From positions 1,173,553 to 1,237,552 of the forward strand of contig CP058708.1 of the NCBI GenBank assembly GCA_013414765.1: DNA of 64,000 nt. Direction: 5' to 3'. This document shows, one piece after another, positions 26,232-41,736 of the stretch. The translations under genes were made by a program, and so were the position numbers. The DNA comes from Candidatus Accumulibacter cognatus. Lineage in GTDB: Bacteria; Pseudomonadota; Gammaproteobacteria; Burkholderiales; Rhodocyclaceae. Within the stretch, counting starts at the first letter, position 1. The number at the start of each line of letters is the position of its first letter. The notes below the pieces were generated by a model. The model ran no database searches and was not told where the DNA came from. It was given only the letters and a program-made list of their open reading frames with translations.

Positions 26232-26433
26232 GGTTTGCAACCCGGACCAGTGATCGAGAAAATCCGCAGCAAATTCGGACTGGCGGATCGGGAAACTCAA
26301 GATATTGCTGAACAAGCTATGAAAAGCTCCAAATATGACGATATTCAGGGGCGGCTCGGTTTAACGAACCACTATATGTTGTGTTATCCGGTTAATCAGC
26401 TACTACCTGTTCTACCTGAGTAGTTACCTGAAA

Positions 26434-27297
26434 TCAACGTTCGTTTCTAACAAGGCCGAACGCCTTTTCCTTCTCGCGGATCAGCTCCGTCCCTGCTCCC
26501 ATCAGCTTTGCTCGCTCAATCCAACGTTTCACCCCGACCGTATCCTTGGCGGTGTGGCTCTTGTCAGCCAAAGCAAGGTAGTGGTCGACGATCCGGTTGG
26601 CGATGCCCTTCACTTCCTCGCCGCGATACTGGCCTCTTGGGTCTATCTGTCGTATCGCGTCGAGGCATGCCTTGGCGGAGCTCTCTGGAGGATCGGTGTA
26701 TTGCGCTTTCTCGACGAATTGAGTCGCCCGCCTAAGCTGATCGTCGATTTCCGCCTTATCCTTGTCGGAAAGTGTCACCGTTGACGAGTCGACGATCTTG
26801 GTTTCGACCACGGTCACCCGCTCCGTCTTTGTCCCACGCGTAAACCAGAATCCCGCCACCGCCAGCACGGCGACAATGGCGAAAGCGATGAACGGGGTAG
26901 CCCAACGTTTGGTCTCGCTGTCGCGCCGCACGCCATGGACGCGGCAGAACGAAGTGACATACTCGGCGGCCACGCGCGGATCAAGTCCCTTCTTCTTTCC
27001 AGTGGCCACCGCCAGCACCTTGTCGAGGGCATCGCGCTCCTCCTTGCCATCCAGACGCTTGTCGTTATCGGTGAACTGATGCAGCAGTCGATCCAACTCC
27101 TCCAGAAGCATACGCTCGCAAACCGCGCCGGCCTTTTCCAACTCGACGCGTATCACCAACTCGGCCTCGGCCACCGCGATACCTCGCGCGGCAGCCTCCT
27201 CTTTAATGCGCTTCTCCTCGTCACGATCGAGGTAAAAGTCGTCGTCAATAGCGGCGTGAACACGGTTCTCCAGCCACAGCTGATCAGCGGGGTTCAT
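26434..27297 (-). CDS. Membrane-anchored protein with helical acidic domain, last gene of the Ter-type array
   Basis: The protein is 287 aa from ATG at 27297 with AGGAGA seven or so bases before. Residues 1-125 are helical and acidic, with two Asp-rich turns, IDDDFYLDRDEE and FTDNDKRLDGKEERDALD, that look like TerB-like or calcium-loop-like repeats. A single membrane segment (FIAFAIVAVLAVAGFWF) at about 135-152 leads to a helical C-terminal region of about 130 residues. The second acidic unit, ending in FCRVHGVR, is shared with the preceding gene (FTDQDKKLDPKERSDA ... FCRANGVR). I do not recognise a named family. It is last in the 14-gene minus-strand array. Confidence 0.7.
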   Translation of the reverse strand: MNPADQLWLENRVHAAIDDDFYLDRDEEKRIKEEAAARGIAVAEAELVIRVELEKAGAVCERMLLEELDRLLHQFTDNDKRLDGKEERDALDKVLAVATGKKKGLDPRVAAEYVTSFCRVHGVRRDSETKRWATPFIAFAIVAVLAVAGFWFTRGTKTERVTVVETKIVDSSTVTLSDKDKAEIDDQLRRATQFVEKAQYTDPPESSAKACLDAIRQIDPRGQYRGEEVKGIANRIVDHYLALADKSHTAKDTVGVKRWIERAKLMGAGTELIREKEKAFGLVRNER

Positions 27298-27335
27298 AAG
27301 TGTTTCTCCTGTCGTGGTGCGTCGATGGATGATAA

Positions 27336-27830
27336 TCAGGGAATAGTCCAGCGTAGCAGGCCGACCTTCACGCGCACTCCATTCGCACGGCAGAAATTGA
27401 CCACGAGCGCATCGGCTACCTTTAACTCGAGACCCTTCGAATAACCGAATCTTGGTTTGCATACCATCTGGATGGCATCACTGCGCTCCTTCGGGTCGAG
27501 TTTCTTGTCTTGGTCGGTGAACCGCCGCAGCAGGTCCGTGAGTTCATCGCATAGCTTCTGCTCGTTGGCGCACCCCAGTCCTTCCAACGCCACGTCCGTC
27601 AGGAGTGCAGCCTTTGCGGGTTCCAGGCCGAAGTCCGATATCCCCTGCTGGATGAGTTCGCCGCGCAGCACCGAATCGCAGTAACCGCCGAACACGCGCG
27701 CGGCGATCCGATTGCGCAGGGCCGCGACCGGATCAGCAACGGGCTGGAGCGGCGTCGGCGAACCCGACACGGTTTGGGCCGCCGTGCCGCCGCTATTGCC
27801 GGACGAGGTCTTGGATAGATTGATGGACAT
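27336..27830 (-). CDS. Soluble protein sharing the helical acidic domain of the next gene
   Basis: The protein is 164 aa from ATG at 27830; an upstream in-frame ATG at 27851 would overlap pgpA. The first 30 or so residues are Ser/Thr/Gly/Pro-rich and probably disordered. The rest is helical, with LLRRFTDQDKKLD and DALVVNFCRANGVRVK aligned to the membrane-anchored protein encoded next. No membrane segment is present, so the pair would be a soluble and an anchored form of one domain. Function unknown; it belongs to the Ter-type array by position and strand, 30 bases after pgpA. Confidence 0.65.
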   Translation of the reverse strand: MSINLSKTSSGNSGGTAAQTVSGSPTPLQPVADPVAALRNRIAARVFGGYCDSVLRGELIQQGISDFGLEPAKAALLTDVALEGLGCANEQKLCDELTDLLRRFTDQDKKLDPKERSDAIQMVCKPRFGYSKGLELKVADALVVNFCRANGVRVKVGLLRWTIP

Positions 27831-27860
27831 CAGGGGCGCATCCTCTTTCAAATTCGCCAG

Positions 27861-28346
27861 TCATTTCGGTACGATTTCGGCTCCAACCCTTACGACGATA
27901 ATCGCGGGGATCGCGGCCAGGGCATCGTCCAGCATGACACCCAGGCCGTTCTTCAGTCGTGCATCCACGATGCAAATCGGCCATGGCTTCCAGATGTCGA
28001 ACAAGCGGAAAGCGAAGCACGCTGCGATCCACGCCACGACCGTGGTTGGCACGAAGAACAGGATTGCGGCCATCGCCACGATCTCGTCCCAAACAATGCC
28101 GCGATAGTCGGCCACTCCAATGGCGCGCCCGGTCACCTCGCACCAATGGCAGCCGAGTGCGAACAGAATTCCGAGGACAACCAAACCGGCGATCGTTGGA
28201 AACAGCGCGTGCAGCAGCACAAAAAGCGGATATCCGATCAGGGTGCCTACCGTTCCCGGAGCGAACGGCGACAGTCCAGCGCCGAAGCCGAAGGCGATAA
28301 AGTGGGCGGGGCGAGATGTGACGAAACGCCAGTCAGGAGAGACCAC
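27861..28346 (-). CDS. PgpA-family phosphatidylglycerophosphatase, intact copy
   Basis: The protein is 161 aa from a GTG that directly abuts the stop of the kinase-like gene (TAG then GTG). PgpA signatures are complete: FGFGAGLSPFAPGTVGTL, RGIVWDEIV, FRLFDIWKPWPI and GVMLDDALA. PgpA removes phosphate from phosphatidylglycerophosphate in the inner membrane. Its placement within a Ter-type operon, translationally linked to a kinase gene, suggests a specialised role rather than the housekeeping enzyme. A truncated paralogue lies 1.9 kb upstream. Confidence 0.85.
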   Translation of the reverse strand: MVSPDWRFVTSRPAHFIAFGFGAGLSPFAPGTVGTLIGYPLFVLLHALFPTIAGLVVLGILFALGCHWCEVTGRAIGVADYRGIVWDEIVAMAAILFFVPTTVVAWIAACFAFRLFDIWKPWPICIVDARLKNGLGVMLDDALAAIPAIIVVRVGAEIVPK

Positions 28347-29849
28347 CTACGCGCCCTCCACCATCTGCACCACTACAAGGCGGCCGCCATCGTCTCGCGA
28401 CAGCAGCAATTTCTGGCCGTCCTTGAGTTCGACCTTGCCGCCCACGGGCACGGCGATCTTATTGTCGATAGTGACATCGGCGAGGTCGGGCAGCGCCTCA
28501 TTGACCAGCCACCAGGCGCCGGCGTGCAGGACGAAATAGCCGACGCGCTTGCGATGCTCGGGCGCCAGACGCTCGTTGGGGAAGATGTTGCGATTGACGT
28601 GCCAGGGAAACAGCGACTGGTTCGTATAGACCATCAGCCGGTGGTTGTCCGGCCGGAAGCAGCCCTCCTTGCGCGCCGAGTAGAGTTTGAGGATCGGTAG
28701 CTTGCCCTGATATGGTGTGCCGCAGAACGGGCATTTGGGTGCGCGGGTATTGTCGAAAACGTACCACTTCTGCGCGCAGTCGGGATTGCGGCAGGGCTGG
28801 ACCAGGTCGACCGTTTTTACCAGTGCCACTTCCCATTCGTCAGCTGTGGGACGCTTGGTGACCTCATGCAGGCCATCGATGAACGCGTGCTTGAACAATT
28901 CCGATAAGTAGGGTCCAGTCACGGAAAAGGGAACCCTTGCCGTGTCATTCCACGGCAGTTCGCTGGGCTTGGCGTCCGACGCACGGATTCGATTGCTGGC
29001 ATCCGCAGGGTGCTCGACAAACAAGGCTTGAGAACCCAAGCATAGCTTCTCGTCCTTTTCCGGATCGAGATCGCAGACCCTGGCGCCACGCAGGGGGTGC
29101 CTGTAAAGCAGGAACATGTAGATCAGCACGGCCAGGGCGTGACGGTCGGTGGCGATGCACGGCAGCTTGCGGTTCTTGTCTTCCTTGGGCAGATGGCTGG
29201 TGGCGACGACTTCGGGGGCGATGAAGTCCGGCGTACCGATGACGTCTGGTGGACACTTGCCGGGAACCACTAGGCTGTCAATGTCGATGATGCAGGCGCC
29301 GCCGCGCACCGGGTCGACGAGCACGTTGTTGTACGACAGATTCGAGTGAGCGAGTCCTGCCGCGTGCAGGCGCCTGACAGCCTGCGAGATCAGGAGGCCG
29401 ATGCGCAGATAGTTGAGCCAGTCGCCGCGTTCGCGCGGGTCGAGGTATCGGTTCTGGTTATTGGCGCTGGTGAACCACTTGCCTTCCTTTAGCATTCCCT
29501 TGATGTTCAGGAAGTCGTTGTTTTTCGAGCCGTACTCAAAGAAGAACTGCTTCTGATAGGAAGGCAGCGTGAAGCCGAACCTGCCATTGATCTCGACTGC
29601 CGCTGTCGGCCAGCGATACAGGTTGCGCCAGTAGTCGCCTTCCGCTTGTCTGAAGACGCTATCCCGGTACTTGCCGGTGATCATTATGAGCCGGTCCTTG
29701 GCCTGGAAGTCCGTGTCACGGAATAACGCCACGACGTAGGAGCGATCCGGACTGAGGTAAACGTGTTGCATTCCGTCCGAGGCCTTGACTTCGTCAATGA
29801 ACTCGATGGGCTGCCCGTCGAGCGTCGTGGTTTTGATGAGGTTGGCCAT
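28347..29849 (-). CDS. Kinase-like protein with zinc ribbon and FHA-like tail; probable pseudokinase
   Basis: The protein is 500 aa from ATG at 29849. The protein-kinase-like domain (about 20-290) has activation-segment motifs GTPDFIAPEVV and IIDIDSLVV, but the catalytic loop reads HSNLSYNN where the sister copy has HSDLSYKN, so the catalytic Asp and the following Lys are both Asn. A zinc ribbon (CRNPDC ... CPFCGTPYQG) at about 350-380 leads to a beta-rich C-terminal region resembling an FHA-type domain (VPVGGKVELKDGQKLLLS). By eye it differs from the upstream copy at about 44 residues, mostly in the kinase domain. Loss of phosphotransfer is inferred. Confidence 0.85.
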   Translation of the reverse strand: MANLIKTTTLDGQPIEFIDEVKASDGMQHVYLSPDRSYVVALFRDTDFQAKDRLIMITGKYRDSVFRQAEGDYWRNLYRWPTAAVEINGRFGFTLPSYQKQFFFEYGSKNNDFLNIKGMLKEGKWFTSANNQNRYLDPRERGDWLNYLRIGLLISQAVRRLHAAGLAHSNLSYNNVLVDPVRGGACIIDIDSLVVPGKCPPDVIGTPDFIAPEVVATSHLPKEDKNRKLPCIATDRHALAVLIYMFLLYRHPLRGARVCDLDPEKDEKLCLGSQALFVEHPADASNRIRASDAKPSELPWNDTARVPFSVTGPYLSELFKHAFIDGLHEVTKRPTADEWEVALVKTVDLVQPCRNPDCAQKWYVFDNTRAPKCPFCGTPYQGKLPILKLYSARKEGCFRPDNHRLMVYTNQSLFPWHVNRNIFPNERLAPEHRKRVGYFVLHAGAWWLVNEALPDLADVTIDNKIAVPVGGKVELKDGQKLLLSRDDGGRLVVVQMVEGA

Positions 29850-29854
29850 GGGAC

Positions 29855-30247
29855 TTATGGCATCGACGACAGCGACAACGTGCCGGCAATCCAGACGTCG
29901 AACAAGCGGAAAGCGAAGAACGCCGCGATCCACGCTGCGACAGTTGCCGGGACGAAGAACAGGGTCGCGGCCATCTCCACGATCTCGTCCCAAACAATGC
30001 CGCGATGGTCGGCCACTCCGATGGCGCGCCCGGTCACCTCGCACCGATGGCAACCGAGCGCGAACAGGATTCCGAGGACAACCACACCGGCGATCGTTGG
30101 AAATAGCGCGTGCAGCAGCACAAAAAGCGGATATCCGATCAGGGTGCCTACCGTTCCCGGGGCGAAGGGCGACAGCCCGGCCCCGAAGCCGAGGGCGACA
30201 AAGTGGGCAGGTCGCGAAGCGACGAAACGCCAGTCAGGTGGCACCAC
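29855..30247 (-). pseudogene. Truncated PgpA paralogue with a fused foreign tail
   Basis: The frame is 130 aa from a GTG abutting the stop of the upstream kinase. It matches the intact copy through FRLFDVW, including LSPFAPGTVGTL and RGIVWDEIV. It then lacks KPWP and the GVMLDD end and finishes with IAGTLSLSSMP, a tail taken from the small membrane protein gene. The lost part contains conserved PgpA residues, so catalysis is doubtful. The frame is clean, so a stable membrane protein could still be made. Confidence 0.8.
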
Positions 30248-31753
30248 CTACGCGCCCTCCACCATCTGTACCAGCACCAGTCGGCCGCCGCCTTCCCGCG
30301 ACAGCAGCAATTTCTGGCCGTCCTTGAGTTCGACCTTCCCGCCCACGGGCACGGCGATCTTGTTGTCGGTAGTGACATCGGCGAGGTCGGACAGCGCCTC
30401 ATTGACCAGCCACCAGGCGCCGGCGTGCAGGACGAAATAGCCGACGCGCTTGCGATGCTCGGGCGCCAGACGCTCGTTGGGGAAGATGTTGCGATTGACG
30501 TGCCAGGGAAACAGCGACTGGTTCGTATAGACCATCAGCCGGTGGTTGTCCGGCCGGAAGCTGCCTTCCTTGCGCGCCGAGTAGAGATTGAGGATCGGTA
30601 GCTTGCCCTGATATGGTGTGCCGCAGAACGGGCATTTGGGTGCGCGGGTATTGTCGAAAACGTACCACTTCTGCGCGCAGTCGGGATTGCGGCAGGGCTG
30701 GACCAGGTCGACCGTTTTTACCAGTGCCACTTCCCATTCGTCAGCTGTGGGACGCTTCGTGACCTCATGCAGGCCATCGATGAACGCGTGCTTGAACAAT
30801 TCCGATAAGTAGGGTCCTGTCACGGAAAAGGGAACCCTTGCCGTGTCCTTCCACGGGAGCTCGCTGGGCTTGGCGTCCGATGGACGGATTCGATTGCTGG
30901 CATCCGCAGGGTGCTCGACAAACAAGGCTTGAGAGCCCATGCATAGCTTCTCGTCCTTTTCCGGATCGAGATCGCGGACCTTGGCGCCACGCAAGGGGTG
31001 CCTGTAAAGGAGGTACATGTAGATCAGCACGGACAAAGCGTGACGGTCGGTGGCGATGCACGGCAGCTTGCGGCTCTTGTCTTCCTTGGGCAGATGGCTA
31101 GTGGCGACGACCTCGGGGGCGATGAAGTCCGGCGTACCGATGACGTCCGGTGGATACTTGCCGGGAACCACCAGGCCGTCGATGTCGATGATGCAAGCGC
31201 CACCGCGCACCGGGTCGACGAGTACGTTCTTGTACGACAGGTCGGAATGAGCGAGTCCCGCCGCATGGAGGCGTCTGACAGCACGCGAGATTAGGATGCC
31301 AATGCGTAGATAATTGAGCCAGTCGCCGCGTTCGCGCGGGTCGAGGTATCGGTTCTGGTTATTGGCGCTGGCGAACCACTTGCCTTCCTTGTCCTTGCCC
31401 TTGATGTCCAGGAAGTCGTTGTTTTTCGAGCCGTGCTCAAAGAAGAACTGCTTTTGATAGAAAGGCGCCGTGACGCCGAGCTTGCCATTGATCTCGACTG
31501 CCGCTGTCGGCCAGCAGTACAGATTGCGCCAGTAGTCGCCGCCCGCCTGACTGAAGACGCTGTCCCGATACTTGCCGGTGATCATTATGAGCCGGTCCTT
31601 GGCGTGGAAGTCCGGTTTGTCACGGAATAGCGCCACAACGTAGGAGCGATCCGGACTAAAGTAAACGTCCTTCATTCCGCCCGAGGCCTTGATTTCGTCA
31701 ATGAACTCGATGGGCTGCCCGTCGAGCGTCTTGGTCTTGATGAGGTTACCCAT
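30248..31753 (-). CDS. Ter-associated protein kinase with zinc ribbon and FHA-like tail, upstream copy
   Basis: The protein is 501 aa. The kinase domain has the catalytic loop HSDLSYKN, the metal-binding IIDIDGLVV and the APE-type motif GTPDFIAPEVV. A Gly-containing loop, GGMKDVYF, is near residue 25; the usual VAIK lysine is not obvious (the strand reads YVVALFRD), so ATP binding may be atypical. The zinc ribbon (CRNPDC ... CPFC) and an FHA-like C-terminal region are as in the sister copy. Kinase, PP2C phosphatase and vWA (TerY-type) genes together form the 'TerYP' triad known from comparative genomics of Ter systems. Likely target: TerY/TerD-type proteins or the phosphatase circuit; this is inference. 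Confidence 0.87.
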   Translation of the reverse strand: MGNLIKTKTLDGQPIEFIDEIKASGGMKDVYFSPDRSYVVALFRDKPDFHAKDRLIMITGKYRDSVFSQAGGDYWRNLYCWPTAAVEINGKLGVTAPFYQKQFFFEHGSKNNDFLDIKGKDKEGKWFASANNQNRYLDPRERGDWLNYLRIGILISRAVRRLHAAGLAHSDLSYKNVLVDPVRGGACIIDIDGLVVPGKYPPDVIGTPDFIAPEVVATSHLPKEDKSRKLPCIATDRHALSVLIYMYLLYRHPLRGAKVRDLDPEKDEKLCMGSQALFVEHPADASNRIRPSDAKPSELPWKDTARVPFSVTGPYLSELFKHAFIDGLHEVTKRPTADEWEVALVKTVDLVQPCRNPDCAQKWYVFDNTRAPKCPFCGTPYQGKLPILNLYSARKEGSFRPDNHRLMVYTNQSLFPWHVNRNIFPNERLAPEHRKRVGYFVLHAGAWWLVNEALSDLADVTTDNKIAVPVGGKVELKDGQKLLLSREGGGRLVLVQMVEGA

Positions 31754-31758
31754 GGGAG

Positions 31759-32037
31759 TTATGGCATCGAAGACAGGGACAATACGACGGCTATCGCGAC
31801 AATGCAGCCGCGCGTGATGGTGATACCCACTTCGACGGCGTTACGCGCCGACCACTTGGGGCCGGCCGCCAGGCAGAAGACAATGAATAGGACGAGTGGC
31901 ATGATGGCTGCGGCGGCAATCGCCGCGCACACGCTTTCTATGCCGGGACCGAGGGCGGCGGGGGCGGGGATCACTGCCGACAAAGTGTACGCCCCCGCCA
32001 TCACGACGGCTTGGCGCGGATGCGCACGGGTGTCCAT
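31759..32037 (-). CDS. Small membrane protein of the Ter-type array
   Basis: The protein is 92 aa from ATG at 32037, behind GAGGGA and 16 bases after the PP2C stop. Two or three hydrophobic stretches (VVMAGAYTLSAVIPAPAAL, IMPLVLFIVFCLAAG, GCIVAIAVVLSL) indicate an integral membrane protein. No family is recognised. Its last codons (LSLSSMP) also appear at the end of the truncated PgpA, marking the duplication boundary. It starts the kinase-pgpA section of the operon. Confidence 0.65.
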   Translation of the reverse strand: MDTRAHPRQAVVMAGAYTLSAVIPAPAALGPGIESVCAAIAAAAIMPLVLFIVFCLAAGPKWSARNAVEVGITITRGCIVAIAVVLSLSSMP

Positions 32038-32053
32038 GACTAAGCCGTGTCCC

Positions 32054-33679
32054 TCACCACAGAACCGCGAGCGTGCGATCGTCATGATTGCCAGCGATCT
32101 TGAAATCCATCCATTCCAGAAGGCGTAGGTCAGGCTCGCTGCTATTCAAGCAGGCCTCAAGTTGGTCGGACCAGAATGCCTCCCAGCGCGACGGGTCAGC
32201 GAGGTTGTTGTCGGTTTCGAACCACGGGTCGCTTATGCCGTCGGTCATTAGCACGAGGCCGCGGAAATCCTCAACTACCTCGACGCGGAGGCGCTTGTCC
32301 ATCTCGGCGTGGCTGTACATGGTGCTGTCGAGGAAGCGGGTCTGGCCGGCAAAGTCGCCCGAATCAACCTCGCCTAGTAGGGTGACTGCCGGTCCATCGC
32401 GCAGAAGGCCGATGGCACCGTCGCCGACCCAGTAGGCGACGATCAGATTGCCGACTTTCAACGGGCGGTGGATGGCGACCAGCATGGTAGTGGCGTAGTT
32501 TTTGACGGGTACGCCGGTGGCCTTGTGCTCTTGGTCAATCGCGAGCACCGCTTCGTAGATCGCGCGGCTGAGAAGGTTGAACGCCGCTTGCCGAGTGCTC
32601 TCGGGATTCGTGCCCCACTTGTCGGCCACGGAAACCAGAATCGTGCCCTGCTCCGCGACGAGAGCTTTGCTCAGATAGCTGCCGGCTCGCTCGGTCGCCA
32701 GCTGGGAGCCCCGGCGCGAGCGCTTGGCGCTGCCAGCGCCGTCCGCAACGGCGAGAATGTTCCAGCCTTCCACGACGTCGACGAAGAAGTCATCGTCGCG
32801 AAAGCTACCGACATGGGCGTGGGAGCGGCCACGTTTGCTGGCGGCAGCGATGCGGCGATCTCCCGCGCCCGCAAGTAACCGTCGGTCCGTGTGCGGTTTC
32901 GGGTCCGGCTCGGAGGGATCCGGATCCTTTTCCTGCCAGATGGACCACGGGTCCGGGTTGATCACAAGATGGCATTCCCCAACGACCGGCGACGAGACGG
33001 CGTCTGCGCCGGTTGTTCGATAGAACACGCCCAAGACATGGTCGCCAGCCGCCGTCGGATTCCCCTTGAGTCTTTTCGTGGAAAGGTCATAGACAACTCC
33101 GAGCCCTTGGGGCACCTTCACGCCGACGATCACGACGTCGGGGTCCGACGCACGCAAGGACGCGTCGTAGTCTTCGCCTACCCGTGCATTGCGTTGGGTG
33201 CGGAAACTCACGCGTGGCGGTGGCGTCTTTGTGTTCTGCCTGCTGGTCGGCATGCTGCCAGGATGGGGTGCGGGATCATTTGGCCGCGTCGCGGCGGGCG
33301 TATGAGGTGGCGTCCGAGGCGGACCCGGCTGGGCAAGCGGAGGGTCGGCGAGTCGATCCGAAGTCTTCACTAGCTCCGAGGCCGGAGCGGCAGCGGGCGG
33401 GACGCTGACCCTGGAGTCTGTGGAAGGGCTCTGCGACTCCGGATCCGCACCGATCGATTGGACCGCCAAGTCGCGAAAGGATACCCGCTTGGGGTAGGCA
33501 TCCCAGCTTCGCGTCACCTCGCGTACGAACTGCTCGGCCGCGCGGATGACCTCATCCTGCTGCACGAACTCAGCCTGCACTTCATGCGTCACGACAACCT
33601 TTTGGTCCTTATGGGAGATGAAATGCTTCAGGACAGACCTGACCAAGTCTTCCATCTGGTTGCGATGGGTGTCCGACAT
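32054..33679 (-). CDS. PP2C-family protein phosphatase with Ig-like insert (TerYP triad)
   Basis: The protein is 541 aa. A helical N-terminal region (about 1-75), a Pro/Ser-rich linker, and an Ig-like (He_PIG-type) region at about 150-235 with VPQGLGVVYDLSTKRLKGNP and PTAAGDHVLGVFYR precede the PP2C domain (about 270-541). The metal-site motifs ADGAGSAKRSRRGSQ, WVGDGAIGLL, MTDGISDPWF and GNHDDRTLAVL are all present, so the phosphatase should be active with Mn or Mg. Together with the vWA protein encoded just upstream (2-base gap) and the downstream kinase it forms the conserved Ter-linked vWA-phosphatase-kinase set. No membrane segment is seen. Confidence 0.88.
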   Translation of the reverse strand: MSDTHRNQMEDLVRSVLKHFISHKDQKVVVTHEVQAEFVQQDEVIRAAEQFVREVTRSWDAYPKRVSFRDLAVQSIGADPESQSPSTDSRVSVPPAAAPASELVKTSDRLADPPLAQPGPPRTPPHTPAATRPNDPAPHPGSMPTSRQNTKTPPPRVSFRTQRNARVGEDYDASLRASDPDVVIVGVKVPQGLGVVYDLSTKRLKGNPTAAGDHVLGVFYRTTGADAVSSPVVGECHLVINPDPWSIWQEKDPDPSEPDPKPHTDRRLLAGAGDRRIAAASKRGRSHAHVGSFRDDDFFVDVVEGWNILAVADGAGSAKRSRRGSQLATERAGSYLSKALVAEQGTILVSVADKWGTNPESTRQAAFNLLSRAIYEAVLAIDQEHKATGVPVKNYATTMLVAIHRPLKVGNLIVAYWVGDGAIGLLRDGPAVTLLGEVDSGDFAGQTRFLDSTMYSHAEMDKRLRVEVVEDFRGLVLMTDGISDPWFETDNNLADPSRWEAFWSDQLEACLNSSEPDLRLLEWMDFKIAGNHDDRTLAVLW

Positions 33680-33681
33680 CC

Positions 33682-34743
33682 CTACCCCCTGCCGCGTCGG
33701 ACATCAAATCCCTCGTCCTCTTGCGTCGAGGCGTAGAAATTCACGGTCTTTTCGCACCACGGACACACCGCCTCGCCTGGGCCGCTTACGCACATCAGGT
33801 TGCCGCAGCCGCATTGGGCAAAAGCGGAAGGGTTGCCGCAGTAGGGGCAGCCGGGTATGCCGAACAGATCGGAAGTATTGACCGTCAGGTTGCTACGCGC
33901 GGGAGCCGACCACTCGAAATACGATTCGTCGATGGGATGGCAGCCGGTGAGGTCGTAACGGTTGGCCTGCAGCGCGAAGTCACGCGTCTCGACCTGCTGC
34001 GAGACGCGATCGAACTTCATGAGATACGGCTTGCGCGCGCGCTGGCAACGGCCGACGATGACCACGCAGTCGCGATCGCCGATGATCGACTGCGCCGCCG
34101 GGGTCTTCGCCAGCGACAGAATGGATTCGTCCAGGACGGCAATGGGGACGGCGCCGGATTCGCTGTCACCGACGCTGCGGCTTTGGCTGGTCACCGACGC
34201 AGTTACCCATTTGACGAACTTGGCGAAATCGTCCTCGCGGGAGTCCTCGAACAGCAGAACGGTTTCGGTCAGTCGCCGCAGTACGGCAAGATCGGCGTAA
34301 CGCCCGAGGCCGACTGCGATCAGGTGGGCCTTGCGCGCGTAGGTGCGCTGCCAGCGTTCGATCGCCGCGTCCGCGACGTCGGTAGGTTTGCCGTCGGTAA
34401 AAAGGTAGACGATGGGTTTCCAGTCGCCCTTGCGGTCCGCCGTCGTCCTGACCACAGTGCGATCGATTTCCGCCATGAGGGCGTTTAGCCCGGCACCGAG
34501 GGATGTGCCGCTCCCGATGGGTAGTTTGGGCGGATAGAACGACACAAGGTCCATCAGTGGCGCAATGGTGCGGGCAATGCCAGCGAAGGCAACCACGGAA
34601 ATATGAACGGTTTCCAGCGCGTGGGGATCCTGCCTGAGGGAGCGCACGATCATCCCCAGCCCGTCCTCCATCTTTTGCAAGTTATCTCCCGCCATGGACT
34701 CTGACACATCGAGCAGGAAAAATACGGGAAGGCGTCGCGACAT
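33682..34743 (-). CDS. TerY-type vWA protein with C-terminal zinc-ribbon (TerY-C) domain
   Basis: The protein is 353 aa from ATG at 34743, where vWA homology begins. The MIDAS motif is DVSESMAG; the other MIDAS elements are GSGTSLGAGL and LFTDGKPTD. After residue 210 or so a second domain carries DRDCVVIVGRC and a zinc-binding end with CPYCGNPSAFAQCGCGN and CPWCEKTVNF. This matches the TerY-C type of vWA protein described with PP2C and kinase partners. It starts 10 bases after the preceding vWA gene and ends 2 bases before the phosphatase start, so co-translation is likely. Confidence 0.87.
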   Translation of the reverse strand: MSRRLPVFFLLDVSESMAGDNLQKMEDGLGMIVRSLRQDPHALETVHISVVAFAGIARTIAPLMDLVSFYPPKLPIGSGTSLGAGLNALMAEIDRTVVRTTADRKGDWKPIVYLFTDGKPTDVADAAIERWQRTYARKAHLIAVGLGRYADLAVLRRLTETVLLFEDSREDDFAKFVKWVTASVTSQSRSVGDSESGAVPIAVLDESILSLAKTPAAQSIIGDRDCVVIVGRCQRARKPYLMKFDRVSQQVETRDFALQANRYDLTGCHPIDESYFEWSAPARSNLTVNTSDLFGIPGCPYCGNPSAFAQCGCGNLMCVSGPGEAVCPWCEKTVNFYASTQEDEGFDVRRGRG

Positions 34744-34753
34744 GGCGGATTCC

Positions 34754-35395
34754 TTAAAGAACGACTTGCACTTCGGCGGGAGGCGGCGGCAGGACGGTCG
34801 GACTGGTCGCGCCGGCGCTGCTGCTGCCAAAGGAAATGCTCGCGGAAACCCAGCGGAAAAATGCCACGAAAGCCGCGCTGTCGGTGGTGTCGAGGCTGAC
34901 GACCGTGTCGGTGAGTTCACGCAGGAATTCTTGCTTCGCCTTTGGCCCGGCCGCGCAAGCGACGATGTTGCCGAAATTGAGTCGCTTGACGGCGAGGACC
35001 GCATTCCGATAAGCCTGGATGTCCGCAGGTTTGCCATCCGTCATCACGAATAGCAGCGGGCGCCAGTCGCCCTTGCGCTCGGCGGTAGTGCGAATCACCT
35101 CGCTTTCGAAGCACTGGATCACCAGCTCGAGGGCGGAACCGAGCATGGTTGCGCCGGACTCGGGAGTGGTGATTTCCGGAACGCTGATGTCTTCAAGCGG
35201 CGTCAGCGACACCAGCTCCCGCGCTTCGATGTCGAAGGTGATGAGACACAGGTGCACGCTTTCGAGGGCGTAGGGATCCTGTTTCAATGCGCTGACCATG
35301 GCCTTGACGCCGACATTGACGGCCTGAATTGGCTCGCCCTTCATCGAACCGGATGTGTCGAGCAGGACATAGACTGGCAGGCGCCGCGAACTCAT
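34754..35395 (-). CDS. terY: TerY-like vWA protein, second copy
   Basis: The protein is 213 aa, essentially a single vWA domain. The MIDAS motif DTSGSMKGEPI starts at about residue 12, with ESGATMLGSAL and VMTDGKPAD following. The end is a Ser/Gly stretch and then a Pro-rich tail, LPPPPAEVQVVL. It is close in sequence and length to the other short vWA protein (36082-36720), and each follows a TerD gene. TerY-type proteins are thought to act as metal-dependent adaptors in Ter complexes at the inner membrane. Confidence 0.9.
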   Translation of the reverse strand: MSSRRLPVYVLLDTSGSMKGEPIQAVNVGVKAMVSALKQDPYALESVHLCLITFDIEARELVSLTPLEDISVPEITTPESGATMLGSALELVIQCFESEVIRTTAERKGDWRPLLFVMTDGKPADIQAYRNAVLAVKRLNFGNIVACAAGPKAKQEFLRELTDTVVSLDTTDSAAFVAFFRWVSASISFGSSSAGATSPTVLPPPPAEVQVVL

Positions 35396-35411
35396 GTCGA
35401 TGGTCTATCGG

Positions 35412-36059
35412 TCAGATGTAGTGGTCGCGCAGGATGTGCACGAAGCTGTCAGTCTCGAACGGGCGGCCGATGGCGTTGAACTTCCATCCGCCTTCTTCGC
35501 GAACCAGTTCCGCGAAGATCATCGAGCGGCAGTTCGCGAATCCCTCGCCGCCCGACAGATCGAAGCGCGCCATTTCCTTGCCGCCGCGATCGACGGCGCG
35601 AATGAAGGCGTTCTTGACCTTGCCGAAGTTCTGTTTCTGCTCGATCCCCTTGTAGATCTGCACGACGAAGGCGATCTTCTGGTACTTGTCTGGCAAGCCG
35701 TTCAGATTGGCGATGATCTGCTCGTCGTCCCCGTCGCCGACGCCCGTTCGGTTGTCGCCGGTGAGAAGCACTTGGCCAGTGTGGTGCTGCATGCTGTTGT
35801 AGAAGACGATGTCGCCGTTCACCAGCGTCGGTTGGCCGTTCTCGGTTTTACCCAGGTCGTTGACCTTCCCGCTACTGCCGCAAAGGAAGGCAACGACGTC
35901 GAGGTCATAGTCGGGTTCCTTCTTTGCGAACATGGAACCGAGCAGCCCACCCGACTTCGCCTGTGCGATGTCCCATCCGAGGCCGATGGTGACTTTCGAC
36001 AGGTCGTTCTGGTCCTTTCGCAAGCTGACGCCTTGTCCCTTCTTCAAGCTCACTGCCAT
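35412..36059 (-). CDS. terD: TerD-family calcium-binding stress protein
   Basis: The protein is 215 aa beginning MAVSLKKGQGVSL, the family hallmark. Calcium-site motifs are DYDLDVVAFL and LTGDNRTGVGDGDDEQI, with NFGKVKNAFIRAVD and FDLSGGEGF later. An insert after GWDI (AKSGGLLGSMFAKKEP) makes it longer than the usual TerD of about 190 aa. TerD proteins work with TerC-like membrane proteins in resistance to tellurite, phage and other stresses; here they are likely part of a stress-response complex. Confidence 0.93.
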   Translation of the reverse strand: MAVSLKKGQGVSLRKDQNDLSKVTIGLGWDIAQAKSGGLLGSMFAKKEPDYDLDVVAFLCGSSGKVNDLGKTENGQPTLVNGDIVFYNSMQHHTGQVLLTGDNRTGVGDGDDEQIIANLNGLPDKYQKIAFVVQIYKGIEQKQNFGKVKNAFIRAVDRGGKEMARFDLSGGEGFANCRSMIFAELVREEGGWKFNAIGRPFETDSFVHILRDHYI

Positions 36060-36081
36060 GACGCCCCTCCCAATAGAATGA

Positions 36082-36720
36082 CTACATGACGACGTTAACC
36101 TCCGGCGGTGGAGGCGGCAAGTCGCCCAGTCCCGTGACTTCCTTCTGGCCAGAGTCGGCTTTTTGGCTTCCGGAGGACACCGAGGCCGAGACCCACTTGA
36201 AAAACGCCTTGATCGTCGCCGAATCGGCCGTGTCGAGCTGCACGACGACCTCGGTGATTTGCTTGAGCACGGTCAGATCGGCACTGGGGCCGGCAGCGCA
36301 GGCGACGACCATTCCGGTCTTGGCCTTGCGCAGACTGGCGAGGCCGCGCTGCCAATCATCGGTCGGTGAACCATCGGTCATGAGAAACACCAGCGGCTTC
36401 CAGTCACCCTTCTTTTCGGCAGTGGTCTTCTCCACCTCAGTGTCGATGCGCTGTCCGAGTAGTGCGAGCGCACCGCCGAGGGCCGTGGTGCCGCTGGCCA
36501 TGAGGCTAGGCATCTGGAACGACGCCAGTTCGGTCAATGGGACGATCTGCTTCGCGGCGCTGTCGAAAGTCAGGACGGACAGATAGGCGGTTTCCAGGGC
36601 GTAGGGATCCTGGCGCAGGGTTGAAACCAGAACCTGAAGGCCGTTCTTTACGGCTTCGATGGGCTCGCCAGACATCGAGCCGGAGGTGTCGAGAACGAAA
36701 TAGACAGGCAAGCGGCGCAT
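36082..36720 (-). CDS. terY: TerY-like vWA protein, first copy
   Basis: The protein is 212 aa from ATG at 36720 behind GGAGGAG. The MIDAS motif is DTSGSMSGEPI, with ASGTTALGGAL and FLMTDGSPTD. The C-terminal tail LPPPPPEVNVVM closely resembles the tail of the second short vWA protein. It follows a TerD gene by 16 bases. The shared tail suggests a conserved binding or anchoring sequence. Confidence 0.9.
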   Translation of the reverse strand: MRRLPVYFVLDTSGSMSGEPIEAVKNGLQVLVSTLRQDPYALETAYLSVLTFDSAAKQIVPLTELASFQMPSLMASGTTALGGALALLGQRIDTEVEKTTAEKKGDWKPLVFLMTDGSPTDDWQRGLASLRKAKTGMVVACAAGPSADLTVLKQITEVVVQLDTADSATIKAFFKWVSASVSSGSQKADSGQKEVTGLGDLPPPPPEVNVVM

Positions 36721-36736
36721 GCGGAGCTCCTCCTGG

Positions 36737-37339
36737 TCAGACGATGTTGACGCCGTACTGGCGGCACAGGGCTTCGAGTCCGCCGGCATAGCCTTGGCCG
36801 ACAGCCTTGAACTTCCACTCGCCGCCATGACGATAGATTTCCGCGAAGACCAAAGCCGTTTCCGTGCTGAAATCCTCTGAAAGGTCGAAACGGACGATCT
36901 CCTGGTCGGTATCGTGGTTGACGATGCGCACGTAAGCATTGCTGACCTGGCCGAAGTTCTGTTTGCGAGCCAAGGCGTCGTAAATGGTGACGGTGACGAT
37001 CAGCCGCTGCACTCCTGGCGGAACCTGATCGAGGACAACCTTGATGGACTCGTCGTCCCCGTCACCGGCACCGGTCCGATTGTCACCGGTGTGCGTCACT
37101 GATCCGCAAGGAGAGCGCAAGTCCCCCGATCCGTCCAAGTCCTTTGATCCGTAAAAGACAAAGTCCTCGTCGCGTGCAACCTTCCCGGTGGCGGTCACCA
37201 AGAAAACACTGGCGTCGAGGTCGAAATCCTCACCCGTGGTGGAGCGAGCATCCCAACCCAGTCCGACGAGAAGTCGGTTGAGGTTGGGCGATGTGCGTGA
37301 CAGGGAGACGTTGCCCCCTTTTGCCAAGCTGACTGCCAT
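36737..37339 (-). CDS. terD: TerD/TerE-family calcium-binding stress protein
   Basis: The protein is 200 aa beginning [15 protein letters not shown]. The calcium-binding motifs [12 protein letters not shown] and [17 protein letters not shown] are intact, and [14 protein letters not shown] and [12 protein letters not shown] follow the family pattern. It is close to the standard TerD/TerE length. With the following vWA gene it forms the first of two TerD-vWA pairs, both downstream of the DUF475 membrane protein. Confidence 0.93.
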
Positions 37340-37364
37340 ACGATATTTCTCCTTCCGATGAGGC

Positions 37365-38411
37365 CTATGCAGTTTCCGGTTCCACTGCTCGACGGCGTTT
37401 GTAGCGAATCGACGAGATCAGGGCTAATGCGATGAAGCTTACGCCGACGAGGCCGGTGATAACCTCCGAGACATGATAAACGATACCGGCGAGCATGATC
37501 GCGGCGAGCGCTCCAATCGCGTAGTGGGCGCCGTGCTCGAGAAAGACGTATTCGTCCAGCGTTCCCTTGCGGACCAGGTGCACCGTCAGCGAGCGGACAA
37601 ACATGGCGCCGATAGCGAGCCCAAGCATGATGATCACCACGTCGCGTGTGATGGCGAAGGCACCGATAACACCATCGAAGGAAAACGACGCATCCAGAAC
37701 CTCGAGGTAAAGGAAACCGGTCACGCCGTTCCGCTTGGCGGTGGCTACAGCCGCGCCGCCCTCTTCCTCGCTTTCGAAAAGGCTGTCGAGACTGCTGACA
37801 GCCACGAAAAGCACCGCGCCTCCCACTCCCGCCACCAACATCGTCAGGCGGGCCGTAGCATCGATCTGCAGGAACTGTTGCATTGCCAACAGCACCATGA
37901 GGGCGACGACGATGGCGATCGAATCCAGTTTGCCCAGCCTCGCTAGCCGCTCTTCGGCGGCACCCAGCCAGTGCAGTTCCTTGCCCTCATCGAAGAGAAA
38001 GGAGAGGAAGACCAGTAAAAGAAACATGCCGCCGAAAGCAGCGATCCCGACATGACTCGCCTGAAGGTAGCGGGCATACTCGTCGGGGCGGTGGAGCGCC
38101 ATCCCGGTTACATCCGTCATGCTCAGCCCGGCGGCTACCGCAACGATGGCGATCGGAAAGAACAAACGCATTCCAAACACGGCAATCAGAACGCCAATCG
38201 TAAGGAAGACTTGCTGCCATTTCTCGTCCATATCCTTCAGCACCGAGGCGTTGACCACGGCATTGTCGAAGGAGAGGGAAACTTCCATGACGCCCAGAAC
38301 GGCGGCCAGGACGATTGCCGTGGCAACTCCGTAACCCGACTGGGCACCCCAGTATCCAGCAGCCGCCAGGCAGACAAAGGTGACAACGAATGAAAGGTGA
38401 AAATCTTTCAC
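37365..38411 (-). CDS. DUF475 (TerC-like) integral membrane protein
   Basis: The protein is 348 aa from a GTG at 38411, chosen because GGGGAGGAG lies about 8 bases before it and the homology starts with KDFHLSFVV; the longer frame has no ribosome binding site. About eight to nine membrane segments and the acidic motifs [14 protein letters not shown] and [17 protein letters not shown] are typical of DUF475, a branch of the TerC superfamily. Such proteins are inner-membrane partners of TerD and vWA proteins, possibly handling metal ions. It is the first gene of the Ter-type operon. Confidence 0.9.
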
Positions 38412-38526
38412 GGCGGCTACTCCTCCCCAGGGTAGGCGATGATCTTCTATGTCATCCGATGGTGATACTACCAATAGGCGCCAAGAGACGCAAGTCAAAA
38501 AGACAGTCATGTAGGGAACAAGTAAT
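38412..38526 (-). promoter_or_regulatory. Upstream region of the Ter-type operon
   Basis: All 14 genes downstream run in one direction with small gaps, so the main promoter should be here. On the minus strand a -35-like TTGACT (38493-38498) is followed about 16 bases later by TATTGG, a poor -10; another hexamer, TAGTAT, lies further on. The consensus is weak, so an alternative sigma factor or activator is possible. The inverted repeat of a deleted IS element begins directly at 38527. Confidence 0.3.
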
Positions 38527-39610
38527 CAGTCCGGGTTTGTAGCAAATTGAAGTGATGCGGCTGACAGAAAAGTACCGAGGGCGGCACGAGGGGTGGAGCG
38601 CGAAGCATTTTTACGCGTGGTATCGAAAAGACGGTGGCGCACGCAGCTACACCTGGGTGAAGAGTCGGCTGCAGGAAGCGGCCCTGGTTCCCAAGGCCCA
38701 GGGCCCGTGGGGCGCACCGGAAGCGCCGGGAGCGTTCGCCGTGGCCGGGATTGATGATTCATCAGGACGGGCGCACGCACGAAGGGGTCGCTGGCCAGCC
38801 ATGGGATCTGATCGTGACGATGGACGACGCGACCCAGGAGCCCTACTCGATGTTCTTCGTGGAGGAAGAAGGCACGATGAGCAGCCTGCGGGGCGTCAGG
38901 GAAGTCATTGAATCACGGGGACTCTTCTCGACCTTCTATTCGGACCGGGGCAGCCACTACTGGCCTACGCCGGAAGCCGGGGGCAAGGTGGACAAGCAAA
39001 ACCTGACGCCATTCGGGCAGGCCATGAAGCGCCTCGGAATCGAGATGATCGCCGCCTACTCGCCAGAAGCCCGCGGGCGCTTGGAGCGCAGGTTTCGCAC
39101 CCATCAGGACCGCCTGCCGCGGGAACTGGCGCTGGCCGGGATCACCGACCTGGCGGACGCCAACCGCTACCTGACCGAAGTCTATCGGCCGGCCTTCAAT
39201 GCCGAGTTCATGCAGCCGGCCATGGAGGAAGGGAGTGCCTTCGTCGGCTGGATCGGCGGCGCGCTCGACGACATTCTCTGCGAGCGGTTCGAGCGCACCG
39301 TCGGCAACGACCACTGCGTCAGCTTCGAGGGAATGAAGTTGCAGATTCCCGCCGATCGTCATCGCTGCCACTACGTCAAGGCCAAGGGGGCGGTGCTGCG
39401 CCGTACGGACCACACGCTGGCGATCTTGCACGGCCCACGCAAGTTGGCCGACTATGACGAAACCGGCAAAGTCATGCCTCCGAATTTGAAGGTGGCTGCG
39501 TAGGTCCGCCGCGGCCGCACGGGGCGGGGAAATCGGTTCCGGGCTACGCCCTCCACCACTTTCCCCGCCCCGGTCAAAGCGGACAATTCATGTGCTACAA
39601 AACCGGACAG
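38527..39610 (+). mobile_element. Deleted ISNCY-like insertion sequence with both terminal repeats
   Basis: Terminal inverted repeats are visible at 38527-38544 (CAGTCCGGGTTTGTAGCA) and 39593-39610 (the reverse complement reads CTGTCCGGTTTTGTAGCA), matching at 16 of 18 positions. Between them lies a transposase lacking its N-terminal part, so the element has an internal deletion next to the left repeat. A further related GGACAATT-type motif sits just inside the right end. The element lies directly upstream of the Ter-type operon, in the opposite direction. It could be moved only by a transposase supplied in trans. Confidence 0.75.
38552..39503 (+). pseudogene. ISNCY-family transposase, N-terminally deleted and frameshifted
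   Basis: The visible product starts at RLTEKYRGRHEGWSAKHFY in one frame and continues past a frameshift near 38700 as HRKRRERSPWPGLMIHQDG in another. The DDE catalytic core is recognisable, with LIVTMDDATQEPYSMFFVEE, FYSDRGSHYW and IAAYSPEARGRLERRF. Full-length members have roughly 85-90 more N-terminal residues with a helix-turn-helix. Start loss plus frameshift mean it is inactive. Confidence 0.85.
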
Positions 39611-39764
39611 TTTTATTTGTTGCCAACAGTCAAAAAAAAGAGCCAGCAATCGGAGGCTTGCCTGATGCCTGGGTGGATCGATGCGCGGATTTTCGATACC
39701 GGCAACGCCGGCAGACCAGCCCTTCGGGAGCCGTTGGGGGTGACGGCCGAGGGGCACATCAACC

Positions 39765-40317: not shown

Positions 40318-41736
40318 ATGCAAAACGAGCTATTGCGTTACGAACGACTGGCGGAGGATCTGGGAGGCATCATCGTCGCCGGCAACTTGCGGCCGGGCGA
40401 ACGCCTGCCATCGGTGCGGCGTCTGTCGCGCGAGCGGCGGCTTTCGGTTTCAACGGTACTGCAGGCGCTGCACCATCTGGAGGATCGCGGTCTTGTCGAA
40501 GCCAGGCCGCAATCCGGGTACTTCGTGCGCCATGCGGCATCGCCGCGCGCCCAGCCGAATGCCCGCTCGACCCCTGAAGCGCCGGTGCCGGTCGACGTCA
40601 GTCAGCGTCTGATACGCGTCCTGCAAACCGGCATGCAGCCGGGCGTCGTGCCACTCGGAGCTGCCCTACCGGCGTGCACGCTGTTACCACTGGCCGCGCT
40701 GCAACGACTCTATGGCGGCGTCTTGAGGCGCCATCCGCGGCTGCTCGAGGGCGGCAGCCACATCAATATGGACGAACCGGCGCTGATTCGCCAATTGGTG
40801 CTCTGTTCGGTGGGCTGGGCCGGACCACTGGCGGCCAACGAATTCGTGATCACCAATTCCTGCACCGAGGCTTTGGGACTCTGCCTGCGCGCGGTGACCC
40901 GGCCTGGCGACACGGTGGCAGTCGAATCGCCGACTTATCACCTGATGCTGCAACTACTTGAAGTTCTGGGACTCAAGGCGCTGGAAATTCCCACCGATCC
41001 GCGCACCGGCCTGTCGATCGAGGCGCTTGACCTGGCCACCCGCGAAAGCGGGGTGGCTGCCTGCCTGCTGGTGCCCAACGCCAGTAACCCGCTCGGCAGC
41101 ATCATGCCCGACGAGCACAAGCGCCGACTGGCCAAGCTGATGGCCGAACGCGGCGTGGCGGTGATTGAAGACGACATCTACGGCGATCTGCATTTCAGCG
41201 GCGAGCGTCCCTGGCCGATCAAGGCTTTCGACAAGGCCGGCAATGTGATGCTCTGTTCTTCTTTTTCGAAATGTCTGTCGCCGGCCCTGCGTATCGGTTT
41301 CGTGGCCGCCGGCCGCTACCGGGCGCAAGTCGCCCTGCACAAGACAATCACCAGCGGTGGCACCAATCCGGTCACCCAGCAGGTCCTCGCGGAGTACCTC
41401 GAATCGGGCGCCTACGCGCGCCACATGCGCGGACTGCGACGCACCTACGAGCGCCAGGTGGACGCCATGCGCGCGTCGGTGGCCCGGCACTTCCCGACCG
41501 CCACGCGCATCACCCGGCCACAGGGCGGTTTCGTGTTATGGGTCGAACTGCCCGAGGGGGTGGACACCACCGCGCTCTACGATCGCGCCATCGCCGCCGG
41601 CGTCGCTTATGTCCCGGGAGAACTCTTTTCGGCCAGCGGCATGTACCGAAACTGTTTGCGGCTCAACTGCGGCAACCCGCACACGCCCGAAGTCGAGGAC
41701 GCCGTACGACGCCTTGGTGGCTTGATCGCTGGCTGA
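40318..41736 (+). CDS. MocR-family regulator (GntR wHTH fused to PLP aminotransferase fold)
   Basis: The protein is 472 aa. The N-terminal winged helix (about 1-75) shows LRPGERLPSVRRLSRERRLS and ALHHLEDRGLVEARPQSGYF. A fold type I aminotransferase domain follows from about 100, with ITNSCTEALGLCLRA, VPNASNPLGS, EDDIYGDLHF and SSFSKCLSPALRIGF, the last holding the PLP-binding lysine. These proteins act as PLP-sensing transcription regulators rather than enzymes in the cases studied. The divergent DUF2917 gene and the repeats between them suggest local control. Effector unknown. Confidence 0.92.
   Translation: MQNELLRYERLAEDLGGIIVAGNLRPGERLPSVRRLSRERRLSVSTVLQALHHLEDRGLVEARPQSGYFVRHAASPRAQPNARSTPEAPVPVDVSQRLIRVLQTGMQPGVVPLGAALPACTLLPLAALQRLYGGVLRRHPRLLEGGSHINMDEPALIRQLVLCSVGWAGPLAANEFVITNSCTEALGLCLRAVTRPGDTVAVESPTYHLMLQLLEVLGLKALEIPTDPRTGLSIEALDLATRESGVAACLLVPNASNPLGSIMPDEHKRRLAKLMAERGVAVIEDDIYGDLHFSGERPWPIKAFDKAGNVMLCSSFSKCLSPALRIGFVAAGRYRAQVALHKTITSGGTNPVTQQVLAEYLESGAYARHMRGLRRTYERQVDAMRASVARHFPTATRITRPQGGFVLWVELPEGVDTTALYDRAIAAGVAYVPGELFSASGMYRNCLRLNCGNPHTPEVEDAVRRLGGLIAG

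Follow-up and report, generated by a model that had tools for sequence, protein, structure and literature searches.

A Ter-type operon of Candidatus Accumulibacter cognatus with PgpA-family phosphatase genes behind its duplicated kinase

Results and Discussion

We analyzed a stretch of 64,000 nucleotides from Candidatus Accumulibacter cognatus (assembly GCA_013414765.1, contig CP058708.1, positions 1,173,553 to 1,237,552 of the forward strand), which we call the window and which contains a Ter-type operon at 26434-38411. An earlier note, made from the DNA letters alone, had listed 14 minus-strand genes here, and a check of the open reading frames (ORFs) of the window found every one of them on that strand and in place. 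Pfam families agree with its reading of a Ter operon composed of a TerY-P triad, two TerD-vWA pairs and a TerC-like gene. The genes are packed more tightly than the gaps of up to about 140 bases that it had described: the spacing is -32 to +25 bp as far as the gene for U171, followed by a gap of 38 bp to U342 when the latter starts at ATG 27297. The features are:

37365..38411, minus strand: DUF475/TerC-family membrane protein (PF04332 E 1.7e-112, PF03741 E 1.3e-17; 8 hydrophobic segments)
36737..37339, minus strand: TerD protein 1 (PF02342 E 6.2e-82)
36082..36720, minus strand: vWA protein 1 (PF00092 E 1.5e-13)
35412..36059, minus strand: TerD protein 2 (PF02342 E 9.1e-55)
34754..35395, minus strand: vWA protein 2 (PF00092 E 9.4e-12)
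33682..34743, minus strand: vWA and TerY_C metal-binding protein, triad member (PF15616 E 4.1e-54, PF00092 E 2e-10)
32054..33679, minus strand: PP2C phosphatase, triad member (PF13672, PP2C_2, E 3.8e-41), 2 bp from the vWA-TerY_C gene
31759..32085, minus strand: hydrophobic ORF of 108 amino acids, doubtful gene (three hydrophobic segments, no family match)
30248..31753, minus strand: kinase 1, which retains its catalytic motifs and has cysteine pairs following the kinase domain (sub-threshold PF00069 match, E 5e-7; 80-locus alignment)
29855..30247, minus strand: PgpA1, truncated (PF04608 positions 2-105 of 141; homology stops before the invariant K120, D140 and D141)
28347..29849, minus strand: kinase 2, probable pseudokinase (D171N, G193S, R157Q, G25D and K28Q in kinase 1 numbering)
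27861..28346, minus strand: PgpA2, full length (PF04608 E 8.5e-35; 12/12 invariant residues)
27336..27851, minus strand: U171, a Ter-associated helical domain alone (domain comparison, AlphaFold, Foldseek)
26434..27297, minus strand: U342, a U171-type domain with one hydrophobic helix and C-terminal helices (ATG 27297 preferred over 27462; AGGAG upstream)
27989..29878, minus strand: copy 2 of a tandem duplication (copy 1 at 29890-31782; 92.6% identity over 1893 bp)
26295..39679, unstranded: inserted segment of about 13.4 kb with the Ter operon and a broken transposase (blastn against the empty site, flanking-gene distances)
38552..39503, plus strand: broken transposase of two overlapping frames upstream of the operon, presumably so by eye (PF13683, rve_3, E 0.11, below cut-off)

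The GTG starts of PgpA1 and PgpA2 directly abut the stop codon of the preceding kinase with zero gap. Both kinases score under the 31.7-bit Pfam cut-off for Pkinase (29.8 and 26.9 bits), and the family searches gave no match above cut-off for the 108-amino-acid ORF, U171 or U342. A sigma-70 promoter scan of 25900-39000 returned zero sites, below the shuffled mean of 3.1. The N-terminal half of the PP2C protein (32850-33679, minus strand) has no Pfam match and appears by eye to be a linker and an Ig-like stretch.

For comparison we used the best 80 of 155 relatives of kinase 1 from genome contigs; these loci were thus picked by the kinase, some of them or their downstream positions end at contig edges, and the trees given below are quick searches without bootstrap. 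By phmmer, the PP2C query found matches in 76 of the 80 loci, vWA-TerYC in 72 (this query also catches plain vWA), TerD1 in 59 and DUF475 in 32, and the gene order is retained with variations across Pseudomonadota, Bacteroidota and Verrucomicrobiota. Additionally, 2318 plasmid records match the kinase at E 1e-60; among the 40 of these that were listed, the enterobacterial kinases are 61.8-64.0% identical to that of the window. The IncHI2A plasmid pME-1a (NZ_CP041734.1) shows the order terW, vWA, TerD, vWA, TerYC, PP2C, kinase, with terZ, terA-like, terB, terC, terD and one more TerD gene in the vicinity. The excerpted text of PMC11003894 gives terWY1XY2Y3 of E. coli KL53, the same kind of arrangement as the window core, and the TerY-P arrangement is described in excerpts of PMC11090510. 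Judged by gene content and order, the core TerD-vWA-TerD-vWA-vWA/TerY_C-PP2C-kinase is an already known, widespread ter operon.

All three members of a TerY-P triad are present, namely a vWA protein with TerY_C, an adjoining PP2C phosphatase and a kinase with a zinc ribbon, the latter read by eye from cysteine pairs that the 80-locus alignment shows to be conserved after the kinase domain. Kinase 1 is predicted to be active, with reversible phosphorylation. Of the classical ter cluster the window has the TerD and TerC genes, with two TerD genes and a DUF475 gene with a TerC-family match of E 1.3e-17, and neither TerB nor a terZA block occurs in the 14 ORFs, TerB not having been searched genome-wide. 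The genome holds three TerD genes, two in the operon and a third at G000:C1:3001910-3002476 (L002), 1.8 Mb away. Among 369 genomes of the class, the kinase was found at E 1e-100 only in its own genome and as one partial match, and no relatives in viral contigs were confirmed.

A TerY-P triad can also belong to phage defense. Excerpts of PMC10889362 report that TerY-P protects Pseudomonas aeruginosa PAO1 from Autographiviridae, and those of PMC11090510 that such triads accompany CoCoNuT restriction systems, so that the operon might sense infection while PgpA alters the membrane. We consider this improbable, because none of the 14 ORFs encodes a nuclease, helicase, restriction or McrBC family, a PADLOC scan of nine proteins gave only weak matches for the kinase and one TerD (E 9e-5 to 0.0076), and the TerD, TerC and extra vWA genes indicate the classical ter kind.

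The small membrane protein that the earlier note had counted among the additions does show three hydrophobic segments, but it may not be a gene. Its ORF overlaps the PP2C gene by 32 bp, has no evident ribosome site upstream and has no homologue in the 80 related loci by phmmer and profile search, which makes it doubtful as a gene; the zero count rules it out as a conserved part of the operon. The PP2C-kinase spacing of 300 bp lies beyond that of all 76 measured loci (median 11, maximum 270), and therefore something extra does sit between the two genes.

The operon and the broken transposase form an insert of about 13.4 kb. Blastn of the empty-site locus (L181) against the window places it at about 26295-39679, where it replaces about 102 bp of the same-genus genome G026. 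About 733, 641 and 557 bp separate the matches to the flanking genes in the same-genus genomes G026, G005 and G006, compared to 14.0 kb in the window. The left flank gene (24033-26315) is present in 5 and the regulator-like right flank gene (40318-41736) in 25 of the 28 genomes of the genus. These 28, the own genome included, hold a high-score Ter kinase only in G000, which is the genome of the window, and in G019, with a weak partial match in G017; since the flank genes of G019 are on separate contigs, its insertion site is not readable. Composition gives no signal of a foreign origin, with a guanine-cytosine fraction of 0.604 in the insert and 0.616 and 0.608 in the flanks. Two large genes lie downstream of the insert: by eye, 20491-24000 shows deacetylase- and glycosyltransferase-like stretches, and 24033-26315 has the look of a secreted glycoside hydrolase.

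The position within an insertion also suits another explanation, namely an ordinary Ter operon with passengers, in which PgpA, the HAD-IB hydrolases introduced below and the U proteins are the cargo of a mobile island and contribute nothing to Ter function, and kinase 2 and PgpA1 are the debris of a recent duplication. We regard it as a serious though rather unlikely alternative, on which much of what follows bears.

The position directly behind the Ter kinase, in the following called the slot, holds a phosphatase in several distant lineages. In 4 of the 80 loci the kinase is directly followed by PgpA in the same orientation; these loci belong to metagenome-assembled genomes (MAGs) of Nitrosomonas (L008), Pseudomonadota (L013), Desulfamplus (L041) and 'Deltaproteobacteria' (L059). 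A fifth case (L179/L192), found via PgpA, has an ORF of 102 amino acids between kinase and PgpA, and its PgpA lies within a long Ter operon ahead of a TerD-like gene. The count of PgpA genes expected in the slot is 0.02 per 80 loci, assuming one PgpA per 4000 genes and ignoring relatedness. In six other loci (L019, L021, L026, L030, L060 and L063) the slot is taken by a HAD-IB hydrolase (TIGR01490, E 4.5e-41 to 5.4e-35), as it is on a Caballeronia plasmid (L110); these proteins are 45-63% identical between lineages, with 91% for L026/L110. Even within the genus both families occur, since the window operon carries PgpA and that of Candidatus Accumulibacter contiguus (L063) carries HAD-IB. The Ter kinase of L063 is split by a frame change and its TerYC likewise gives two matches, through MAG error or decay. 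A PgpA at L036 was rejected as Ter-linked because it is encoded on the other strand, with over 4 kb between it and the first Ter gene. The protein that follows PgpA or the kinase at L013:12006-12800 and L011:2860-3666 may be a further accessory of this operon type; the former gives a sub-threshold match to PF05099 (TerB, E 0.00099) and the latter none at 0.01.

The earlier note had presented PgpA-family phosphatases abutting kinase genes as a new addition to the Ter core. The association indeed recurs, in the 4 of 80 loci and in L179/L192, but as a minority accessory, with no PgpA in 76 of the 80 slots. Both PgpA and the domain of the U proteins occur beside Ter genes elsewhere, and the confinement to this single genome that the earlier note had named as telling against its proposal was not seen. 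Distantly related lineages have PgpA on the same strand behind the kinase, and in L013 and L192 it lies inside the operon; this speaks against mere passengers, as does the occupation of one slot by two unrelated phosphatase families.

The slot enzymes also bear on what the kinase phosphorylates. If its substrate were a lipid or small molecule (not, or not only, protein), PgpA or HAD-IB would be the opposing phosphatase, and by their matches both enzymes belong to families that act on small or lipid phosphates. The kinase has a weak Pfam similarity to Kdo/LPS kinases (E 0.0018, below cut-off), and among the matches listed many plasmid copies are annotated as 'lipopolysaccharide kinase InaA family'. 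We nevertheless find a lipid or small-molecule kinase improbable, given that Pkinase is the better Pfam match, that 76 of the 80 loci encode a member of the PP2C family of protein phosphatases and that the slot enzyme is missing from most operons.

PgpA2 retains all 12 residues that are invariant in the 77 comparison rows, which include the Ter-linked L179, and thus shows both the family match and the invariant residues of PgpA. PgpA1 is truncated and lacks Pfam positions 106-141, the stretch that in PgpA2 bears K120, D140 and D141, each invariant in 77/77 rows; it is probably inactive. PgpA2 stays under the NCBIfam equivalog cut-off (PRK11068, 126.3 of 226 bits), a model of one lineage that does not exclude activity. 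On plasmids, PgpA2 finds 26 records, each at less than 60% identity.

In a quick tree of 83 rows (five duplicate rows omitted, rows trimmed to the PgpA part, PgpA1 cut at residue 119) the window PgpAs form one clade with those of L008 and L013, with a support of 99 in the Shimodaira-Hasegawa-like approximate likelihood ratio test (SH-aLRT). This clade has four rows from three genomes, every row behind a Ter kinase, and the remaining PgpAs of these genomes (L005, L100, L098) fall outside it. The other PgpA of the window genome (G000:C1:1148019-1148435) adjoins ThiL- and NusB-like genes (named by eye), which is the usual housekeeping setting of PgpA. A second clade unites the Ter-linked L041, L179 and L059 with L180, a locus of 3.4 kb in which no Ter gene is seen.

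The earlier note had described a duplicated kinase together with PgpA. The duplication is real, but it is one local event of 1.9 kb that left a probable pseudokinase and a truncated PgpA1. Positions 29890-31782 match 27989-29878 with 92.6% identity over 1893 bp, and the duplicated unit runs from the last codons of the 108-amino-acid ORF to inside PgpA. Because the unit ends within PgpA, PgpA1 lost its last third. Two working kinase-PgpA pairs are ruled out by the single duplication, the truncated PgpA1 and the loss of the catalytic Asp in kinase 2.

Kinase 1 keeps 155 positions that are conserved to 95% or more in the alignment with the 80 relatives, and 10 of these are lost in kinase 2, while kinase 1 shows no such losses of its own and one departure is common to both. 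Among the residues lost are the catalytic-loop Asp D171 (conserved in 80/80), R157 (80/80) and G193 (79/80), as well as G25 and K28 (78/80 each, the other two rows being gapped); the roles of the catalytic-loop Asp and of the other motifs in both kinases are those generally ascribed to them in kinases. Six relatives also depart at 9-16 of these columns, so that the number of losses does not by itself set kinase 2 apart from them, whereas the loss of the catalytic Asp does. With the catalytic Asp and the DFG-type motif lost in an open frame, kinase 2 has the features of a pseudokinase.

The ratio of nonsynonymous to synonymous substitution rates (dN/dS) between the two copies is 0.24. When changes were polarized with the 25 nearest relatives, using thresholds of our own choice, nonsynonymous to synonymous changes numbered 26:6 in kinase 2 and 9:13 in kinase 1 (Fisher p 0.0036), which indicates relaxed or changed constraint on kinase 2. 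Another 46 changes are ambiguous, 35 of them synonymous, and halving these arithmetically gives about 31:23 for kinase 2 and 14:30 for kinase 1. The synonymous divergence is uneven along the copies (0.24, 0.32, 0.17, 0.04 and 0.12 per 100-codon block), and gene conversion could have acted in the C-terminal part. Kinase 2 would accordingly either partner kinase 1 as a pseudokinase or be a remnant of the duplication that is decaying. Its weak constraint and the truncation of PgpA1 favor debris, as the passenger explanation has it, whereas an even split of the ambiguous changes would leave kinase 2 some constraint.

A second tandem kinase pair in a genome of the Desulfamplus phylum (L190/L191, G1149:C249) weakens simple decay, because it is an independent tandem of an intact and a dead kinase. 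Its downstream kinase has the catalytic-loop Asp replaced by Asn and no DFG-like motif, and stays open over 517 codons; it scores 293 bits against kinase 1, compared to 561 bits for its neighbor. That this pair is much diverged and the dead copy still an open frame again argues against debris. None of the other 80 loci holds two whole kinases, the double match in L063 being one frame-split gene. A PgpA lies near the far end of the L191 Ter operon on the opposite strand and was not counted as a slot case.

The earlier note was right that the two unknown proteins share a domain, which recurs beside Ter genes (L011, L060 and an Azospirillum plasmid). About 125 residues are common to U171 and the N-terminal part of U342, which is extended by a single hydrophobic segment and C-terminal helices. 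Because the sample was picked by the kinase, the Ter linkage of L011 and L060 follows from selection, so that only the plasmid homologue, an ORF that closes a Ter operon (1/1 Ter-linked), is independent. Among 398 genomes of the phylum the domain occurs in its own genome and in none of the 397 others, and no relatives in viral contigs were confirmed. AlphaFold predicts a confident helical domain for U171, with block means of 86-95 in the predicted local distance difference test over residues 41-160 and two acidic loops, each leading into a helix; for U342 the model is less confident (mean 73.5, predicted template modeling score 0.40). No PDB entry reached E 0.001 in Foldseek (best values 0.38 with U171 and 0.29 with U342), and a PDB search with the U profile gave a single chance-level match. 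By alignment and model, the U domain is a rare, Ter-associated, apparently helical domain without a Pfam or PDB match.

Conclusion

In summary, gene content, insertion, duplication, recurrence of the slot and loss of catalytic residues in kinase 2 are all supported by the sequence. We favor, with a probability of roughly 55%, a horizontally acquired Ter operon of the terY-X-Y/TerY-P kind with an optional phosphatase docked behind its kinase.

Several observations weigh against this interpretation. Seventy of the 80 slots hold neither phosphatase, which also fits the passenger explanation; they contain other genes, often DUF475-like or TerYC, or a contig end, and slot genes outside the clustered set are mostly without annotation. 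There is no slot phosphatase in two enterobacterial plasmid operons (L111, L112) or in L188-L190, three more kinase loci that a scan of 395 genomes of the Desulfamplus phylum yielded. Since most operons are without one, a slot phosphatase is not needed for Ter function. Just one of 68 PgpA loci drawn regardless of Ter (L113-L180) is Ter-linked, and no second PgpA was found in the genomes of L041, L059 and L179, whose Ter-linked copy may thus be doing the housekeeping job. The kinase tree needs 4 changes for PgpA (4 forced) and 5 for HAD-IB (2 forced), so that the association recurs, yet with few independent gains. Finally, the HAD-IB proteins of the slot match the PgpC model poorly, and we rejected them as PgpC: TIGR01545 gives 22 of 259 bits in one of the six, far below the equivalog cut-off, and the other five have no match at E 0.001.

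How an operon with an optional phosphatase might work can be sketched as follows. Under metal, oxidative or envelope stress, kinase 1 and PP2C would set the phosphorylation of the TerD and vWA proteins at the inner face of the membrane, and the TerC-like protein would handle a divalent metal. PgpA2 would serve as a dedicated membrane phosphatase, most likely for phosphatidylglycerophosphate and possibly for another lipid phosphate, and would supply or remodel lipid where the Ter proteins act; HAD-IB may take its place in other operons. The lipid link, like the phospho-regulated complex tied to phosphatidylglycerol that the earlier note had suggested, is inferred. According to excerpts of PMC10550928, TerC proteins of Bacillus subtilis help to load Mn into exported enzymes, and excerpts of PMC11003894 connect more complete ter clusters with lower lipid peroxidation under tellurite.

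One may speculate further about a Ter branch with a phospholipid output, which we advance only tentatively and consider unlikely as a whole. A TerY-P switch, in some genomes including a pseudokinase that partners the active kinase, would here control its own phosphatase for lipid phosphates, which is PgpA or, through non-homologous replacement, HAD-IB; in response to stress signals, phosphatidylglycerol or another lipid would be altered locally at the TerD/vWA/TerC complexes, and the U domain, as a new Ter-associated domain, would be the tie to the membrane. Tellurite is seldom encountered, yet ter genes are common on clinical plasmids. The recurring slot phosphatase is a testable hint that some Ter systems act on membrane lipid, and the kinase/pseudokinase tandem in two distant genomes is a natural experiment on the regulation of Ter kinases. 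We found no description of the phosphatase slot, of this tandem or of the Ter-associated U domain; for the PgpA-Ter association, the literature was covered at the title and abstract level, where the papers listed with terms of both kinds dealt with genomes or arrays, and Anantharaman et al. 2012, which founded the study of Ter neighborhoods, may note PgpA.

In comparison with known systems, PgpA2 shares PF04608 and the invariant residues with the housekeeping PgpA of its own genome and stands in a separate clade. Regarding PgpC and the HAD-IB hydrolases, the slot proteins of other loci belong to HAD-IB (TIGR01490, TIGR01488), and the window operon is without HAD-IB. TerB is all-helical and has two acidic loops, each ahead of a helix. 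The U domain is predicted to be likewise, but profile and fold give no match, and we rejected U171 and U342 as TerB because there is no Pfam match, no significant PDB fold and no hhalign match to a four-row TerB-type alignment, which is weak evidence given how shallow the alignments are. With the plasmid ter operon (terY1-X-Y2-Y3, PP2C and kinase) the window has the order vWA-TerD-vWA-TerYC-PP2C-kinase and the strand in common; it adds DUF475/TerC and an extra TerD in front, and a tandem kinase, PgpA and the U proteins behind the kinase, with no TerB in the 14 ORFs. With the TerY-P triads of antiphage and CoCoNuT systems, as excerpts of PMC11090510 and PMC10889362 present them, it shares the TerY-type vWA, the PP2C and the zinc-ribbon kinase; the window triad, however, is joined not to nucleases or McrBC-type genes but to TerD/TerC and a lipid phosphatase.

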